A stretch of 64,000 bases of DNA, from the NCBI RefSeq assembly GCF_000784835.1, contig NZ_JSFH01000010.1, forward strand, positions 1 to 64,000, read 5' to 3'. Shown here piece after piece: positions 49,773-57,490 of the stretch (positions within the stretch are counted from its first letter, which is position 1; the number at the start of each line of letters is the position of its first letter). The notes beneath the pieces are model-generated. The model worked only from the letters and a program-made list of their open reading frames with translations. It ran no database searches and was not told the DNA's origin. This DNA is from Thermotoga sp. Mc24 (GTDB lineage Bacteria; Thermotogota; Thermotogae; Thermotogales; Thermotogaceae). The position numbers and the translations under genes are program-made.

Positions 49773-49795
<23 letters not shown>

Positions 49796-52700
49796 CGACA
49801 AGATTCGTCCCGATGAAAAGCACATCTGGATCTGTATGAGCGTAGAGACCACGAGAATACATCGGATAAACCCGCGCCGGAAGAAGATGAAACACCCCCT
49901 CTGCGGTCGCTCTCCAGACGTAGTCGAAACTATCACCGTAAAGGTATCGGGCAAAGAGCGCCACCCTGTCAGTGCGAATCTCCCTTCCAGAGTACCACGC
50001 GTCCCATGAAAAGTACCAGCTGTACGAGAACTTGTTCTCTTCGATACCTTTTTCTCTGTAGTTCGAGAGCACCTGCGCGCAGGACGGAATGAAATCCTCC
50101 ACTATGAGGTAGTTCCCGTCTCCTTCAACCCTCACCACCGTTTTGATTATGTCTCCCAACTCTATCTTCACGTCTTCAACGTCGAAGACCACCTCGAAAA
50201 CTCTGTCCCAGAGCGTCTTCGAAGAGCCAGCGAAACGTATGCTCTCCGCCACCAGCCTCTTCCCATCCCAGAAAAAGACCCTTCTGGCAACGAACGGAAG
50301 TTCCACGAACTCTCCGTTCTTGTACCAGTAGGTTTTGTTTTCTCCCCTCAGCAGGATCTCATCCATCGTGCAGGACAGCCCCGTGACGTCTTCGGGAACG
50401 GGTATCTTTTCATCACCGATCAGCACGAATCCTTTCATGAGAAAGACAAGACCACTCTTCATGAAACCTGCGTCCATCACGTCCAGATACCTGGTGATGG
50501 TGTTCTTCTCCGTATCGTAGACGAGCACTTCATCTTTGAGAACAACGAGAATCAGGCCGTTGAACGTTTCGATCCTGGAGAACGTGTAAGTCTCATCACC
50601 TATTTTCACCTTTGCACCGTCTATCTCGAGGGGAACTCCCTTGTATTCAATTCTCTTCTTCCAGTACTCGTACGGCAGGATGTAGAGTTCCTCTTCCTGG
50701 TCTCTTTCGACAGAATGCATTGAGATCGGCACGTATCCTCTCCCGATCGGCACGAAGGCATCCACAATCATTCTTTTCTCCTCTATCAGAAGTTCGTACC
50801 TTTTGTAGAATTCTCTTTTTATCTCCAGGCCTTCACTCACAGACTCTTTCGGAACTTCGACGTAGGTTATCTCCACCTCCACGATGCCTTTTCCAGAAAC
50901 GATCAGTGAACCGGGAACGAGAGATCTTTCTTCACCTGGCTTCAGTTCGAAGGTGTTTTCGGAGTTGACTACCTTCAGTGTGGTTGAAGTGTACTCCGGC
51001 ATCGACTCGAGGAGAGCCAGGATGGCAAAAGATGTGTCTTTTGTGGAAGTCCAGAAAGCGCTGTCTTTTTTCAGAAGAAGGTAATTTGTCAGTTTTCTTT
51101 CCAGTTCCGGGAATTCCTTCCACTTCGCAAGAGCCCTGAGGAAGACACTGTTGAGCTGGATATCACTGATGAGTGGGTTATCAGAAGATACATTCAGATA
51201 GGCTTTCTGCTCGTCCTGGACAACGTGGTTCATCAGCTGTTTCAGAGCCTCTTTTGAGCTCAAACTCAGAAACACCAGATCCGCTTCGCTTTCTGGCTTG
51301 AACGGCTCGTGGTCCACTCCGTACAGATCGAGAACGTACGATCCGTAGGCCGACGGATGCTTCTTGAGATACTCTATTCCCCTCTGAATAACGCTTTCTG
51401 CGACATCGTATCCCGCCTTCATGGTGAAATACAATCCTTCCATCACGTAGCAGGTCATGAAATCATTGGATTCGTCGAATCTGAACCATCCCCAGCCACC
51501 ATCGCTGTGCTGGTAGTAGTAGAGTCTGAACAGCCCACTCTGGATGATCTCCTCCAGGTTCTCCACCTCTATTCCTACGCTTGCTGCAACCACGGCCGGG
51601 AAGAACCGGCTTATGGTCTGTTCAACACATCCGTACGGGAAGTCTATCAGTCTCTTCAAGCTATCCTCGATGAGCGGAACGATGCTTTCCAGAAACCTTA
51701 TCCTCGAGGAAACAAATCGCCCCTTCGGAATTTCCAGCGTCTCTTTCCCGTCCAAAAGCAAAATCCTGTAGAATTCCCTTTCGAAAGCGAATCTTTCAAC
51801 GGGCAGCCTCATGGAAACCGCGTCGTTCAAATCCCCTCCGATCGCAACGAACTTCACGAAACTTCCTTCAGAAGCAGAGACAGCCCTTACTGTCCAGGTC
51901 TCTGTGTGTGATGAGTTCGCCTCCATCAAAAAGTGTCTTGAGGAACTCCCCTCGAGGAGTTCTATGTTTTCGGGAAGTTCTATCATGAGGTCAACAGGCA
52001 GGGCTTTCGAAGTCCTGTTGAAAACGGTCGCGGATATTCTTATCACATCTCCATCTCTCAGGAAAGACGGAAGGTGCGGCATCAGATAGAACTTTTTGGA
52101 AACAACAATTCCACTTTCTGCCTGGGAGAATCGATCCTTTGAGAAACCGTAGGCCGTTGCCCTGAAGGAGGTGATGCTGTCCGGGACCTTGAAGCTCACC
52201 TTTGCCGTTCCGTTGTGGAGCTCCAGCGAAGGGATCCAGAGGGCCGTGTCGGGGAAGTACTCCCTGACGTTCAGCCTGGATGGGAAAGCGTTCTGTTTGA
52301 AGTCGGCGAAGGTCTTCTCCTCTGGAAGGGAAGCGAGTTTGTTTCGGAACGAATCCCTTGAAACGTAGAGTTTCCAGTAATGTGGAAATCCTCCTTCTGT
52401 TTGAGGATAGTTCATGTAAGGGTAGAGGAAATTTTCGAGCACTGGTGGTTCTGTTCCAACCATGGCGTATATCGCTTCATCAACCAGGAAAAGACAGACT
52501 CTGTCCACGTTCGATTCGATCGTGATCTGTGCTATTTTCCCCGGTTCGTACTGATCTTTGTCGAACAGTATCTTCATGGTGGTGAAGTTCGTGTCGAGCA
52601 GAACGTTCAGCCTTTCCAGTCTGTAGATCCGACCCGTGTCGTCGCGTCCGACAAAGCTGAGAAAGAGATTCTTCTCGGGGATATCTTCCGGTATTCCGAC

Positions 52701-54380
52701 GCGCAAGTTGACAGAGCCGGTGAAAGAAACGGGAATGGTGTCGTAAACCCTGCTTGAGACAATTCCCAGAACTCCCATCACCTTACCAGGTGCAAGGATC
52801 TGAACCGAAAGTTCATCTCCGGGTTTCACCGTGTTCGTTGCCGGGTTGATGACGAACTCGTTACTCATTCTTGCACTGTAGTAAGCGTACACGTAGAGAC
52901 GAGTTTTCGCCTTTCCAAAGGAGAGTTCGATTCTGTAACTTTCTGGTTCTTTTGGAGTGAAAGTAACGATCGCTTCGCCGTTTTCCACGACCACCGTACT
53001 CGTTGAATCTTTGGAAGAGACGGTGAGCAAACCATCTAAGGGATTACCTGAAAGATCCGTCACTTTCACCTTCACTCTCACCAGTCTGCCCGGCGAGGTA
53101 AAAACGTACCGAGTCAGCGGAGATATCAGAACGTTGTCGGCGTACACATCCACGGTTTTGACTTCCTCGATCTGACGCTGGCTCTCATCCGTTACGATCA
53201 CTTCCAGCCGGTAAAAGCCCTGAAATCCTTCTTCTGTCTTCACACCGAACCTGAGGTTTCCCTCTTCGTCCGTGAAGTCCGTTCCCCTGTAGACAAGATA
53301 GCCACTTCCCTCTTCGGGAAAGGCTCGAACGTAGTAGGCAACCTGCGCTTTCGCGACGGGCTGGCCGTTGAAGTACCTCACCCTGACGAGGTAGTTCACA
53401 ACTTCACCCGATATGTACACGTCTTTGTCCGTTTCGATTTCGACTTTGTACTCCGGTTTTCTGTACTCTTCCACCAGAAAGTTTTCGTAGTAGTATCTTC
53501 CTCCATGTTCGATCTTCACTCTGTAGAGTCCAACCGGGGCTGTGTCTGGAAGTTCCACGGAACCGTTGAATCCACCGAGTTCGTCGGTTTCAAGCTCCGA
53601 TTTGTAAACTTCGTTGTTCTTCGTGTCGAAGATGGAAACGGTGACCTTCGTCTTTTCAAAGGCCCTGTAGAGACCCTCTTCAAAAGAGAAGATCTGCCCT
53701 CTGAAATGGACCGTGTCTGACGGTTTGTAGATCGGTCTGTCCGTGACGAAGAAGAGCTTCTCTTTTTCAAGTCCTCCACCAGAAAAGTACACTTCTCCAA
53801 AAAATCGAGAATCCCCGTACCTGATGTAGAACGTGTCGAAGTGTTTCGTGATAGAAACAACACCATCTTTGCCGGTGAAAACTCTGTCGATCAGTTTCGA
53901 ATCTTCAAAGAGAAAAACCTCCGCTCCTTCTACAAAATCACCATTTGAGTCGAACACGTGGAGTCTCAATTTTTCACTGTCGGAGAAGTAGATCACCTCC
54001 AGATCGGTGACGATGAAAAGACCCTTGTCCATCACTCTTCTGAGAACTGTTCCTTCGTTGGAAACCAGTGTCGCAAAGTAGAATCCTTTGTTTTTCAGTG
54101 GAAATGAGAATTCCTTCCACTCCTCTGAGGAGAACTTTTTACTGTAGGTGGGGCGTGTTATCTCTAACAGCGAAAAATTGAAGTTTTCTGGGTCAAAGAC
54201 TGCCTTCAAAAAGTCTTCTTCATTTATCTTCCACACGTTCAGGGTGACATCCTCCAGATCTGAGATCACAAAAGAGAGCCCCTCATCTGGATGTAGAGTG
54301 GGATATCTGGAGAAATAGGCGTATCCTCCAAAAAGACTGAAACCGGCCAGAAGAAAAACTAAGAAAATCAATCTCTTCAT
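49773..54380 (-). CDS. Alpha-2-macroglobulin family protein
   Basis: About 1535 residues with a signal peptide (LIFLVFLLAGFSLFGGYAYF core). Macroglobulin MG domains run through the N-terminal half (FVTDRPIYKPSDTVHFRGQI, DVYISGEVVNYLVRVRY), followed by the A2M core (DTALWIPSLELHNGTAKVSF). The thioester site is intact: PYGCVEQTISRF at about residues 915-926, in the CxEQ form. A thioester-helix domain follows (SDGGWGWFRFDES). Bacterial members trap attacking proteases in the periplasm, often with a penicillin-binding protein 1C or YfaT-like partner; here the partners are DUF1175 and a small protease. ATG at 54380 is better spaced from GGGGGATG than 54389. Confidence 0.9.
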
Positions 54381-54477
54381 ACCCATCATCCCCCCACTTC
54401 CACATTTTTAGAATGTTAATACTATGATACCACTTAACGAAAGAAAATCAGAAGATCAATTTTTGAATATGATTGTT

Positions 54478-54491
54478 TGGTAAATTTACCA
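54478..54491 (+). promoter_or_regulatory. Perfect 14-bp palindrome before tusA
   Basis: TGGTAAATTTACCA lies in the 209-bp space between the divergent macroglobulin and tusA genes. Its perfect symmetry and place suggest a dimeric regulator site for one or both genes. Confidence 0.5.
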
Positions 54492-54517
54492 TATTGTAAT
54501 ATTGATTGATGTCTATG

Positions 54518-54533
54518 TAACATTAGAATGTTA
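54518..54533 (+). promoter_or_regulatory. TAACATT-AG-AATGTTA dyad, candidate operator of the sulfur operon
   Basis: A 16-bp dyad with 7-bp arms, 57 bases before the tusA start at 54590. The half TAGAATGTTA also occurs at 54409-54418 near the macroglobulin side. ArsR-type sulfur sensors bind AT-rich dyads of this size, and such a regulator (ArsR fused to TusA) is encoded at the end of the operon. Binding is inferred. Confidence 0.5.
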
Positions 54534-54589
54534 TCATTTTCACGAGGATCGGGATTTTTTTCACAAAAACTCAAGGGGAGGTGTGCAGT

Positions 54590-54829
54590 ATGGCGAAGTA
54601 TCAGGTTACCAAGACTCTGGATGTGAGAGGAGAGGTTTGTCCAGTGCCCGATGTCGAAACCAAAAGGGCTCTACAGAACATGAAACCAGGGGAAATCCTC
54701 GAGGTATGGATTGACTATCCAATGTCGAAAGAAAGAATCCCGGAAACTGTCAAAAAACTCGGCCACGAAGTCTTAGAAATCGAAGAAGTGGGCCCAAGCG
54801 AATGGAAAATCTACATCAAAGTGAAATGA
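54590..54829 (+). CDS. tusA: TusA/SirA-family sulfur carrier (TM0983-like)
   Basis: A 79-residue protein with the family motif LDVRGEVCPVPDVETKRAL, where Cys17 carries persulfide sulfur. It corresponds to T. maritima TM0983 from memory. The ribosome site GGGGAGGTG matches ATG 54590; an upstream in-frame start is too close. It leads an operon with a YeeE/YedE sulfur transporter and DsrE/F/H proteins, a standard sulfur import and relay set. Acts in the cytoplasm, passing sulfane sulfur to DsrE-type partners. Confidence 0.95.
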   Translation: MAKYQVTKTLDVRGEVCPVPDVETKRALQNMKPGEILEVWIDYPMSKERIPETVKKLGHEVLEIEEVGPSEWKIYIKVK

Positions 54830-54844
54830 GGAGGTGCAGACATC

Positions 54845-55843
54845 ATGATCTGGACCGGTCTACTGATCGGAGTATTGTTCGGTGTAATCCTTCAGCGTGG
54901 CAGGATCTGCTTTAACTCTGCTTTCAGGGACGTTCTGATCTTCAAGGACAACTATCTGATGAGGCTCGCTGCGTTGACACTTGGACTCGAATCCATCACG
55001 CTCCTTATCTTCGCTCAGGCCGGCCTCATAACTCTCAACCCTAAACCCCTCAACTGGATTGGAAACATCGTTGGTGGCTTCATCTTTGGAATTGGAATGG
55101 TCCTCGCTGGCGGATGTGCTTCGGGAGTGACTTACAGAACTGGTGAAGGAATGACAACAGCGTGGTTCGCAGCTCTGGCCTACGCTTTGACGGCTCATGC
55201 TACAAGTAAGGGATTGTTCTCGGGATGGATCAAATGGCTGAACAACTACACGGTGACAGTTTCGAACACGAGTCCCGTTTACGCTCCAAAGACTGGGCCA
55301 ACTATCGCAACGGTGCTCGGTATCAGTCCATGGATCGCCTCAATTATCTTCCTTGCGCTCATGCTCTGGTATGCCTTCGGAGTGAAGAATAAGTCTCAGA
55401 GGCCTTCCAAATTGAACTGGATCGCTGCTTCTGTTCTCATAGCGATACTCGCACCCATAGCCTGGTGGGCAAGTGCGAGCACAGGAAGAAACTACGGTCT
55501 TGGTATCACAGGGGGCTGGATAAATCTGGTTTCTGTTTACGCAAACAATGCTTCTCTGAACTGGGAAGGCGCTGAAATTCTCGGAATAATAATAGGAGCC
55601 GCTATATCTGCCATTGCAGGAAAAGAGTTCAAACTGAGAATGCCAAAGAATCCCAAAACCTACGCTCAGGTTCTTCTGGGAGGATTCCTCATGGGATTCG
55701 GTGCGGTAACAGCCGGAGGATGTAATATAGGTCACTTCCTCACCGGTGTCCCGACACTGGCCATTTCATCGATAGTAGCATCTATCTTCTTTATTCTCGG
55801 AAACTGGACGATGGCCTGGTTCCTGTTTGGAAGACAGAAATGA
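54845..55843 (+). CDS. YeeE/YedE (TsuA-like) sulfur-compound transporter
   Basis: A 332-residue membrane protein with about nine helices in two pseudo-symmetric halves. The conserved cysteines are seen in GRICFNSAFRD, GGCASGVTYRTGEG and GGCNIGHFLTGVPT. In TsuA these line a path for thiosulfate. It is coupled to TusA just upstream, as commonly found, and followed by DsrE/F/H proteins, so it probably imports thiosulfate or a related sulfur species. Thermotoga reduces thiosulfate and sulfur during growth. Confidence 0.92.
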   Translation: MIWTGLLIGVLFGVILQRGRICFNSAFRDVLIFKDNYLMRLAALTLGLESITLLIFAQAGLITLNPKPLNWIGNIVGGFIFGIGMVLAGGCASGVTYRTGEGMTTAWFAALAYALTAHATSKGLFSGWIKWLNNYTVTVSNTSPVYAPKTGPTIATVLGISPWIASIIFLALMLWYAFGVKNKSQRPSKLNWIAASVLIAILAPIAWWASASTGRNYGLGITGGWINLVSVYANNASLNWEGAEILGIIIGAAISAIAGKEFKLRMPKNPKTYAQVLLGGFLMGFGAVTAGGCNIGHFLTGVPTLAISSIVASIFFILGNWTMAWFLFGRQK

Positions 55844-55858
55844 CAAGGGGGAAAAATC

Positions 55859-56215
55859 ATGAAGATAGGAATACAGGTGATGGTTCCGCCCTATACTTAT
55901 GAAGACCTGGACACCGCGATAAAGATTGCCGAAGCCGCAATGGAAAAAGGTCACGAAGTAACACTCTTTCTCTTTGCAGATTCCGTCATATGTACCAACA
56001 AGAACATAAAACCGATCAGAATCGACAGAAACATTCCACAGAAACTTGTAGAATTGATGCAGAAAGGAAACTTCGAGGTTCATATATGTGGAATATGTAT
56101 GGACTACAGAGGAATAACCACAGACATGATAATAGATGGCTCAAAACCCAGCGGTCTACCGGAACTTGCGAATCTGTTCGCTACCTGCGACAGATTCATA
56201 AATTTGATGGCTTGA
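55859..56215 (+). CDS. DsrE/TusD-family sulfurtransferase subunit
   Basis: A 118-residue Rossmann-like DsrE fold protein: IGIQVMVPPYTYEDLDTAIK, then HEVTLFLFADSVICTN and the cysteine region VHICGICMDYRGIT, which holds the likely persulfide cysteine. It matches T. maritima TM0981 in type and context. With the next two genes it would form a TusBCD/DsrEFH-like complex taking sulfur from TusA. Confidence 0.88.
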   Translation: MKIGIQVMVPPYTYEDLDTAIKIAEAAMEKGHEVTLFLFADSVICTNKNIKPIRIDRNIPQKLVELMQKGNFEVHICGICMDYRGITTDMIIDGSKPSGLPELANLFATCDRFINLMA

Positions 56216-56224
56216 GGTGGGATC

Positions 56225-56578
56225 ATGAAAAAACTTCTGTTTGTAGCCTATCAATCACCGGTTGGAAGTGTCTGGGTCAACGAAGCGTTCAGAACGGCCT
56301 TTGGAATGTACGGAGAGGATCTAGAACCAAGTGTTCTCTTAATCGAAGAGGCTTCTGTTGCGTTATCGAAAAATACGAAGCCGGAGATGCTGGGACTGCT
56401 TCCTCTTTCGATCTGTCATAAATACATCAAAAGATACGGTACCAAAGTTTACGCAGTCAAACAGCACCTTGAGAAATACAGAGTAAAGGAACTGGACGAG
56501 AACTTCGGAGCTGAAGTGATCGATGAAGCGGATCTTCCAGAGTTCTTACACAGTTTCGACTACGTCATATTCATGTGA
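56225..56578 (+). CDS. DsrF/TusC-family protein
   Basis: A 117-residue DsrE-fold protein beginning KKLLFVAYQSPVGSVWVNEA, the TusC/DsrF pattern, with DLEPSVLLIEEASVAL in the centre. It has one cysteine (LSICHKY). TusC subunits lack the active cysteine of TusD and act structurally. Between the DsrE and DsrH genes, with gaps of 9 and 11 bp. Confidence 0.88.
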   Translation: MKKLLFVAYQSPVGSVWVNEAFRTAFGMYGEDLEPSVLLIEEASVALSKNTKPEMLGLLPLSICHKYIKRYGTKVYAVKQHLEKYRVKELDENFGAEVIDEADLPEFLHSFDYVIFM

Positions 56579-56589
56579 GGTGATAGGAG

Positions 56590-56853
56590 ATGGCTCTCGT
56601 GCTCGTTAAGTACGGAAAGGATCATCCCGTGGAGAAACTCAAAATAAGATCTGCCAGGGCAGAAGATAAAATAGTTCTCATACAAAACGGTGTCTTCTGG
56701 GCTCTGGAAGAACTCGAAACACCAGCAAAAGTCTACGCAATCAAAGATGACTTTCTCGCTAGGGGATATTCCGAAGAGGATTCGAAGGTTCCACTGATCA
56801 CTTACAGCGGATTCATAGATCTTCTGGAGGGTGAAGAGAAATTCATCGGCTGA
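56590..56853 (+). CDS. DsrH/TusB-family protein (TM0979-like)
   Basis: An 87-residue small alpha/beta protein, matching the structurally solved T. maritima TM0979: ALVLVKYGKDHPVEKLKI, KIVLIQNGVFWALEEL. TusB/DsrH is the third subunit of the sulfur-relay complex. The cysteine used in many DsrH proteins is absent here, as the whole chain lacks cysteine, so it probably has only a structural role. A terminator follows. Confidence 0.9.
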   Translation: MALVLVKYGKDHPVEKLKIRSARAEDKIVLIQNGVFWALEELETPAKVYAIKDDFLARGYSEEDSKVPLITYSGFIDLLEGEEKFIG

Positions 56854-56922: not shown

Positions 56923-56938
56923 GTAGAAGGTGGTACCT

Positions 56939-57490
56939 GTGGGTCGGCATGGAAGCGTTTCGATACTTTTCAAAACCTTATCGAATCAGACACGACTCGA
57001 CATCTTAATGCTTTTGAGAGACAGTTGTCTCACCGCTTCGGAAGTGGCAGGGAAGTTGAATATCAACCTCTCGACCGCTTACAGGCATTTGAACCAGATG
57101 GTTAAAGTGGGAATTCTCAAAGTCGTAAAGGCACCGGAGGGTGACAGGTACGATTTTTCTTCTGTTCAGGTGTTCAGGATGTTAGAGGCAGCGGTGGAAT
57201 TGCTCAACGAGAACGAAAGGGAAAGGAAAAAGAAGATTTCCAGTATCACCTCGATAGAAGAATCGTCTGGATCGAAAAAACTTCTCGATATGAGGGGACA
57301 AATATGCCCTGTTCCAGAGATCACGACTAGAAAGGAACTGGAGAAACTCCAGCCCGGAGAAACCTTGATCATAGTATGTGATTATCCCCTTTCAGGAGAG
57401 AGGATCACAAGTTTTTCTCTGAGAGAAGGCTATGAAGTGGCCACTGAACAGATCGGATCTGTGATGAAAATCTACATAAAGAAACCGTAA
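56939..57490 (+). CDS. ArsR-type DNA-binding domain fused to a TusA sulfur-carrier domain
   Basis: A 183-residue fusion. Residues about 5-75 are an ArsR-like winged helix (FKTLSNQTRLDILMLL, LNINLSTAYRHLNQMVKVG). A basic helical linker (NENERERKKK) leads to a TusA domain at about 110-183, with LDMRGQICPVPEITTRKEL carrying Cys123 at the persulfide site, and IKKP at the end. The TusA part probably senses sulfane sulfur through Cys123 and alters DNA binding. A second cysteine is in DSCLTA of the DNA-binding domain. GTG 56939 is 5 bases after AGAAGGTGG; GTG 56930 overlaps it. The gene follows the sulfur-relay operon. Confidence 0.88.
   Translation: MGRHGSVSILFKTLSNQTRLDILMLLRDSCLTASEVAGKLNINLSTAYRHLNQMVKVGILKVVKAPEGDRYDFSSVQVFRMLEAAVELLNENERERKKKISSITSIEESSGSKKLLDMRGQICPVPEITTRKELEKLQPGETLIIVCDYPLSGERITSFSLREGYEVATEQIGSVMKIYIKKP

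Follow-up and report, generated by a model that had tools for sequence, protein, structure and literature searches.

The gap upstream of tusA in Thermotoga sp. Mc24 likely holds a conserved promoter with two inputs and ArsR-TusA as its regulator, which would make this a variation on the ArsR-type sulfur sensors already described. The gap lies in the stretch of 64,000 nucleotides that was analyzed here (the window). Based on sequence comparisons, we lean slightly towards reading this gap as a regulated thiosulfate-uptake promoter, in which ArsR-TusA would read sulfur on the cysteine of its TusA domain and activate transcription, and in which Rex would add redox control.

The operon and its proposed fused regulator

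The first gene of the operon encodes the sulfur carrier protein TusA (Table 1). It is followed by a gene for a thiosulfate transporter that is placed in the TsuA family by the equivalog model NF052577, with a score above the model cut-off. The operon resembles the YeeE(TsuA)-YeeD(TsuB) uptake system in this family match, in the adjoining gene for a TusA-type partner and in a fold match to the YeeE-YeeD complex (8j4c), but here genes of dsrE, tusC and dsrH type and the ArsR-TusA regulator follow.

Table 1. Features of the window around the gap between the macroglobulin gene and tusA.
Feature	Position	Strand	Evidence or remark
Bacterial alpha-2-macroglobulin, divergent	49773-54389	-	Pfam MG2, A2M, bMG10; considered outside the system
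First copy of TAGAATGTTA (earlier note)	54409-54418	n/a	TAAAATGTTA in G004, G001 and G006
Putative macroglobulin -10, TATCAT, after TGG	54424-54429	-	From a reading of the sequence
Second dyad of the earlier note, TGGTAAATTTACCA	54478-54491		Its right arm makes up block A's left half
Block A, TTACCATATTGTAAT	54486-54500	+	Proposed ArsR-TusA operator; centre about 52 nt upstream of the predicted start
First dyad of the earlier note, TAACATT-AG-AATGTTA	54518-54533		Runs into the -10 hexamer at its upstream edge; confined to the genus
Predicted -10 hexamer of the tusA promoter, TATCAT	54532-54537	+	Spaced 32 nt from the end of the block A core (14 nt)
Rex-type site, degraded in the window, TCGGGATTTTTTTCACAA	54549-54566		10/12; reached by 45/500 shuffles
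tusA, sulfur carrier protein, first operon gene	54590-54829	+	Pfam PF01206, 88.9 bits
tsuA/yeeE, thiosulfate transporter	54845-55843	+	NCBIfam NF052577, 567.8 bits (cut-off 400); Pfam Sulf_transp
dsrE/tusD-like sulfurtransferase subunit	55859-56215	+	Pfam PF02635, 88 bits
tusC/dsrF-like protein	56225-56578	+	Weak: NCBIfam NF001238, 26.4 bits, below cut-off 79; no Pfam family
dsrH/tusB-like protein	56590-56853	+	Pfam PF04077, 45.9 bits
arsR-tusA, winged-helix ArsR-type plus TusA domain, proposed regulator	56930-57490	+	Pfam HTH_5, 35.8 bits; TusA, 62.5 bits

The start codon of arsR-tusA is uncertain, and its relatives align from about 56945 (alignment A1). The protein has an ArsR-type winged helix-turn-helix (HTH_5 cut-off, 22 bits) and a TusA domain (PF01206) with an invariant CPxP cysteine, C121. 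The model for the ArsR/SmtB metalloregulator subfamily was not reached (NF033788, 35 bits against a cut-off of 55). The CPxP cysteine is the sole invariant cysteine in 22 aligned fusions and is also present in nine further fusions that were read. A conserved cysteine pair in the ArsR domain, of the kind seen in SqrR, BigR and SoxR, is not conserved across the 22 aligned fusions. A cysteine pair does occur in the linker before the TusA domain in G041, G017, G021 and G033 and likewise in G087, G089, G091, G092, G072, G074, G076, G078 and G081 (L238-L249), and not in the Thermotoga members; it is a possible extra redox switch.

An AlphaFold model of ArsR-TusA contains two well-predicted domains and a loose linker (pLDDT 82.1, pTM 0.47; residues 91-108 under 50). 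Of 50 listed fold matches, those to the ArsR half include CzrA, HlyU, SmtB and BigR (3pqk), and those to the TusA half include TusA and the YeeE-YeeD complex; none of the 50 was described as both ArsR and TusA.

BigR and SqrR resemble ArsR-TusA in the ArsR fold and, as proposed here, in sulfur sensing, but differ from it in having a conserved cysteine pair in the ArsR domain. SoxR and sHdrR of Hyphomicrobium denitrificans are also ArsR-type proteins, encoded together with tusA and YeeE-like transporters and responsive to sulfur compounds (PMC10451225 and PMC11582611, in excerpt). SoxR relies for sensing on two conserved cysteines within the protein itself (PMC10451225, in excerpt), whereas no such pair is conserved in ArsR-TusA. 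Unlike both, ArsR-TusA carries its sulfur carrier as a fused domain, and the position of its candidate site suggests activation.

In the search for the fusion outside the Thermotogota (80 of 134 loci), every match that began within residues 1-8 of the query came from Thermotogota. A further 16 loci that were read yielded no clear fusion, with L202 ambiguous. No earlier mention of an ArsR-TusA fusion was found in titles and abstract beginnings among the matches listed, and a literature search with literal names returned only two selenium papers with a 'SirA-like domain'.

A conserved element accompanies the fusion

Block A has the consensus TTACCAnnnYGTAAY and overlaps the right arm of the TGGTAAATTTACCA dyad. 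To judge from the promoters compared, it is conserved across families of the phylum and goes with the ArsR-TusA protein. We searched 61 genomes, including that of the window, for the fusion and for TusA, and in a second search 103 genomes of the phylum with the alignment of 22 fusions as query. Left out before counting were G007, G008 and G011, where arsR-tusA either leads the operon or runs off the end of a contig; G077, where only the TusA part matched, was left out of the final counts, as was G005, whose sole TusA-like match is distant (36%). Matches in G080, G092 and G101 lie outside the promoter set, the fetched stretches L264-L269 were unused, and G064 alone was counted where it shares an identical promoter sequence with the Mesoaciditoga record L158.

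Promoters were scored against TTACCAAATYGTAAY, and a hit was defined as a score of at least 12/15. All of these promoters belong to fusion operons. Hits were obtained in 20/21 promoters of the search set and in 11/12 of a held-out set, drawn from two families that had played no part in the discovery; the scoring string was set after the held-out promoters had been seen, and its core pattern, which served as the search pattern, was fixed before. Altogether, on the scored strand, 31/33 tusA promoters with the fusion carry block A versus 0/7 without it, the seven representing about three lineages, with related promoters not independent and the absence of the fusion in three Coprothermobacter records judged within the 8-10 kb fetched.

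The best score in the seven fusion-free operons was 11, and the exceptions among the 33 promoters are G049 and G100, each with 11/15. The score of the window promoter was reached by 1/2000 shuffles, and for the 11 held-out hits between 1 and 64 of 2000 shuffles matched the score; that of G100 is no better than shuffles (989/2000). On the minus strand, used as a control, scores of at least 12 were found in G004 (12), in G091 (13, as on the plus strand) and in the fusion-free G013 (12).

The recognition helix reads STx[YFC]R[YH]L in the fusions whose operons have block A, as far as these were read. It has diverged in G049, G007 and G008, where block A is weak or absent. In G007 (L084) and G008 (L086), arsR-tusA is the first gene, directly before tusA, and no significant block A was found upstream of it (69/500 and 119/500 shuffles, respectively). 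Promoters of separate arsR-tusA genes had block A in 0/8 upstream regions scored (best 11/15), and autoregulation of these genes via block A was rejected. In G077, tusA lies closely before a second stretch with a TusA domain (G077:C60:6764-7435; L258) for which no HTH part was matched; the tusA promoter there still has block A (13/15).

Across the 61 genomes, the exact block A pattern was located 46 times: 12 matches fall in tusA promoters, and 34 do not. We inspected 21 of the latter, and 17 are inside ORFs and 4 are not (L095, L096, L102 and L108), the match in L095 lying about 70 nt before an ORF. The only other exact match in the window genome (L118) is inside an ORF. A wide block A regulon was rejected given the 17/21 inspected matches within ORFs. 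For the most part, the site seems to belong to this operon, as would be expected if its regulator is encoded there.

A different regulator could occupy block A, for example an activator of the CRP/FNR type, with ArsR-TusA connected to the site only by being in the same operon. CRP-type sites have the half-site spacing of TTAC-N6-GTAA, and the upstream position of block A would suit an activator. However, six genomes with block A (G014, G016, G026, G028, G030 and G032) have only partial matches to HTH_Crp_2 (27-33 bits) and no full-length match over the cut-off, and G002, G003 and G005 have a CRP-type protein with neither ArsR-TusA nor a close tusA. We consider this explanation distinctly unlikely, and CRP/FNR itself was rejected as the protein that binds block A on the evidence of those six genomes.

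Geometry of the tusA promoter

When spacing is measured from the last base of the 14-nt block A core, a -10-like hexamer (at least 4/6 of TATAAT) is found at offset 32 or 33 in 28/33 promoters and in 11/13 genera. Neighboring pairs of offsets without 32 and 33 reach at most 15/33 promoters. The spacing of 32-33 is missing in G041, G042, G018, G010 and G016. Likeness to a -35 box showed no peak at the expected offsets of 9-12 in the fusion-operon promoters. Because the spacing is near-fixed and the promoter has no -35 box, the geometry suggests an activator.

Proteins of the ArsR family are mostly repressors, and we counted this against activation by ArsR-TusA. An ArsR protein, Rv2034, has been called a positive regulator of phoP in an abstract (PMC3338718).

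Alternatively, ArsR-TusA could bind block A as a repressor that is released when its TusA domain is sulfurated, in the manner of SoxR, sHdrR and SqrR. The sulfane-sulfur sensing ArsR proteins SoxR and sHdrR are described as repressors in the excerpts of PMC10451225 and PMC11582611. Yet a repressor needs neither near-fixed spacing of 32-33 nt to the -10 hexamer nor a missing -35 box, and block A is upstream of the core promoter. Repression through block A is thus unlikely in our assessment, and activation by ArsR-TusA is the reading that we carry forward.

A Rex-type site between promoter and ribosome binding site

A second candidate input is a Rex-type site located between the promoter and the RBS. 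At the position of the degraded site of the window, G001, G004 and G006 have TTGAGATTTTTTTCACAA (12/12; reached by 0/500 shuffles), and G010 also has 12/12. The operator of TM0201 in T. maritima, which was crystallized with Rex, contains TTGAGAAATTTATCACAA (PMC8836258, in excerpt). The three congeners share all 12 half-site letters with this operator, a likeness to the known Rex regulon of Thermotoga maritima.

G004 has two perfect TTGWGA-N6-TCWCAA sites. One is in the tusA promoter; the other, where the [FeFe]-hydrogenase gene begins, agrees letter for letter with the 18-nt core of the TM0201 operator as published. The hydrogenase site of G006 also equals that operator core. G001 has three perfect sites, one of them inside a gene, and the window genome has two (at the hydrogenase gene start and inside an ORF), neither in the tusA promoter. 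When one mismatch is allowed, the pattern outnumbers its control on the plus strand of each of these three genomes, G004, G001 and that of the window (counts of 33 vs 22, 56 vs 24 and 50 vs 26 in the three comparisons).

Among the 33 fusion-operon promoters, 21 have a Rex-type site with 11-12 of 12 letters, each reached by at most 4/500 shuffles. Eight more have 10/12, a score that is not significant alone because it was reached by 28 to 58 of 500 shuffles, and four have 9/12. The fusion-free G052 and G064 have a site with 11/12. The window strain's own site has two changes (10/12), and therefore Rex control may be weak in this strain.

Two Rex-type sites with one mismatch each, with starts 24 bases apart, were seen at G000:C2:70948-70989 (L278, L281), upstream of a minus-strand ORF that starts MWSKEINIKNVIEIRTKTTCYFGAGALAKI and beside the end of another minus-strand ORF. 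The same pair occurs in G004 at 561553-561594.

Rex might control the tusA promoter alone, with block A acting as a polymerase-contact or UP-like element. Consistent with this, the Rex N-domain family (PF06971) is present in 102/103 genomes, and the site is perfect in the three congeners and G010 and nearly so (11/12) in G052 and G064, which have no fusion. However, block A has dyad symmetry and sharply conserved letters, and it occurs together with the fusion. In T. maritima, yeeE is up 42.6-fold on thiosulfate and only slightly on sulfur (PMC9431562, in excerpt), a difference that NADH sensing alone would not explain. We therefore regard control by Rex alone as very unlikely, and retain Rex as a second input beside activation by ArsR-TusA.

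A link between Rex and tusA in Thermotoga was not found in the titles and abstract beginnings listed; the published Rex regulon of 12 operons (10.1128/JB.06412-11) may already include this one. In feather-grown Fervidobacterium islandicum, the tusA-yedE-dsr operon is reported to be activated, and Rex repressed, under starvation (PMC13157175, in excerpt), which fits the two-input model indirectly.

Repeats in the gap and the macroglobulin gene

An earlier note on this DNA had pointed to three sequences in the gap as the likely target of ArsR-TusA, and all three are present exactly where it placed them. It gave the gap as 209 bp, which holds when counting from a later in-frame ATG of the macroglobulin gene; from the first ATG (54389) to the tusA ATG (54590) the gap is 200 bp. 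TAGAATGTTA has 2 copies in the 1.82-Mb genome, both in the gap, and the control pattern (TAGAATGTTA read backwards) likewise has 2 copies in the genome. The first copy lies about where transcription of the macroglobulin gene would start.

The 200-bp gap was shuffled 4000 times with dinucleotides preserved; one or more repeated 10-mers appeared in 202 of the shuffles, one or more perfect dyads (arms of at least 7, gap of at most 2) in 317 and two or more, two being the observed number, in 40. The repeats and dyads are real and mildly non-random, given the counts for the repeat (202/4000) and for two dyads (40/4000) and the restriction of TAGAATGTTA to the gap.

Footprinting across the 33 fusion-operon tusA promoters separates these features. 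TAACATT-AG-AATGTTA is matched at 16/16 in 2 promoters, at 15/16 in 2 and at no more than 12/16 in 29. Two of the three features are not kept beyond the genus, and the third overlaps the conserved element without the dyad quite being that element. The TGGTAAATTTACCA dyad is perfect in G000, G004 and, in another family, G024, where it forms a 20-nt palindrome. Its left arm is altered in G001/G006 and was not seen in most other promoters; this arm is an optional extra half-site.

The gap very likely does hold the ArsR-TusA target, and the right arm of TGGTAAATTTACCA is the core of the conserved element. The TAACATT dyad does not share in this: it is unconserved in 29/33 promoters while the genes are kept, the very outcome that the note had named as refuting its proposal. 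This TAGAATGTTA/TAACATT dyad was rejected as an operator for the phylum, being genus-level only.

One could still suppose that the dyads of the note (TAACATT-AG-AATGTTA and TAGAATGTTA) are the ArsR-TusA operator and that they also control the macroglobulin gene. Two dyads within 200 bp are uncommon in the shuffles, the two 10-mers are the sole copies in the genome, and one copy overlaps the tusA -10 hexamer and the other the likely macroglobulin start. But these dyads are not kept beyond the genus and differ by one letter in two congeners, although the regulator is conserved, and the macroglobulin gene and the operon adjoin, among the stretches fetched, only in the window genome and three congeners. 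This leaves the proposal hardly credible, and block A the preferred operator candidate.

Co-regulation of the macroglobulin gene with the sulfur genes, which the note had suggested, drew no support from adjacency or from upstream sequence and was rejected. Among 28 fetched stretches, several of them short, macroglobulin matches were confined to three congeners (L062-L064), with the window as a fourth case. The gene is present in 22/31 genomes searched; where a genome other than these four has both gene and operon, the two are separated by over 100 kb or occupy different contigs. TAGAATGTTA is absent upstream of the macroglobulin gene in the operon-free congeners G002 and G005 (best 8/10 and 7/10, respectively). 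The stretch around the putative macroglobulin -10 is nearly invariant in four Thermotoga genomes. Taken as a whole, the note was probably right about the place, mostly wrong about the letters and unsupported in its macroglobulin part.

Some further observations concern this neighborhood. The region with the macroglobulin gene, the sulfur operon and their neighbors is 99.97% identical over 12,183 bases between G006 (L063) and G001 (L064), and the identity of these two genomes around the hydrogenase gene is 79% over 4.5 kb. The 12.2-kb block was probably subject to a recent transfer or replacement between species. Upstream of the macroglobulin gene in G002 (L125) there is a sequence, TAACATAACATTGAACATTGTGTTATCAT, that loosely resembles the window tusA promoter, probably by chance. 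G004 has a second macroglobulin-like match at G004:C1:1784461-1788396, which covers residues 3-1310 with 68% identity and lies some 22 kb away from the first.

Proposed mechanism and implications

In the mechanism that we propose, thiosulfate would enter the cell through TsuA, and its sulfane sulfur would be relayed along TusA and then the DsrE, TusC-like and DsrH proteins. Part of the sulfur could be loaded on the CPxP cysteine in the TusA domain of ArsR-TusA. ArsR-TusA would bind block A, just upstream of the promoter without a -35 box, and would most likely help RNA polymerase to start, such that the sulfur supply turns the operon on. In relatives, the Rex-type site may allow repression when NADH is low, a control that would be weakened in the window strain. 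The steps that we infer are the binding of block A by ArsR-TusA, activation, a persulfide as the signal and the binding of Rex here.

In its fullest form, the proposal is of a one-protein sulfur-flux sensor, restricted to the Thermotogota as seen here, in which persulfurated ArsR-TusA activates via TTACCA-N4-GTAA at about -52 of a promoter that lacks a -35 box, with Rex as an additional input. We put this forward tentatively, as somewhat short of an even chance.

If the proposal is true, a thiosulfate-uptake operon would answer to both sulfur supply and NADH, and an ArsR protein would act as an activator. It would also provide a covalent answer to the question of whether TusA loads sulfur on such regulators. 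The natural ArsR-TusA fusion and its conserved operator candidate make this question directly testable in a protein from a hyperthermophile. Block A and ArsR-TusA are also candidates for the switch that makes yeeE of T. maritima rise 42.6-fold on thiosulfate, a response for which the excerpt of PMC9431562 names no regulator. Finally, the promoter may link sulfur reduction with the regulon of the NADH-sensing Rex.
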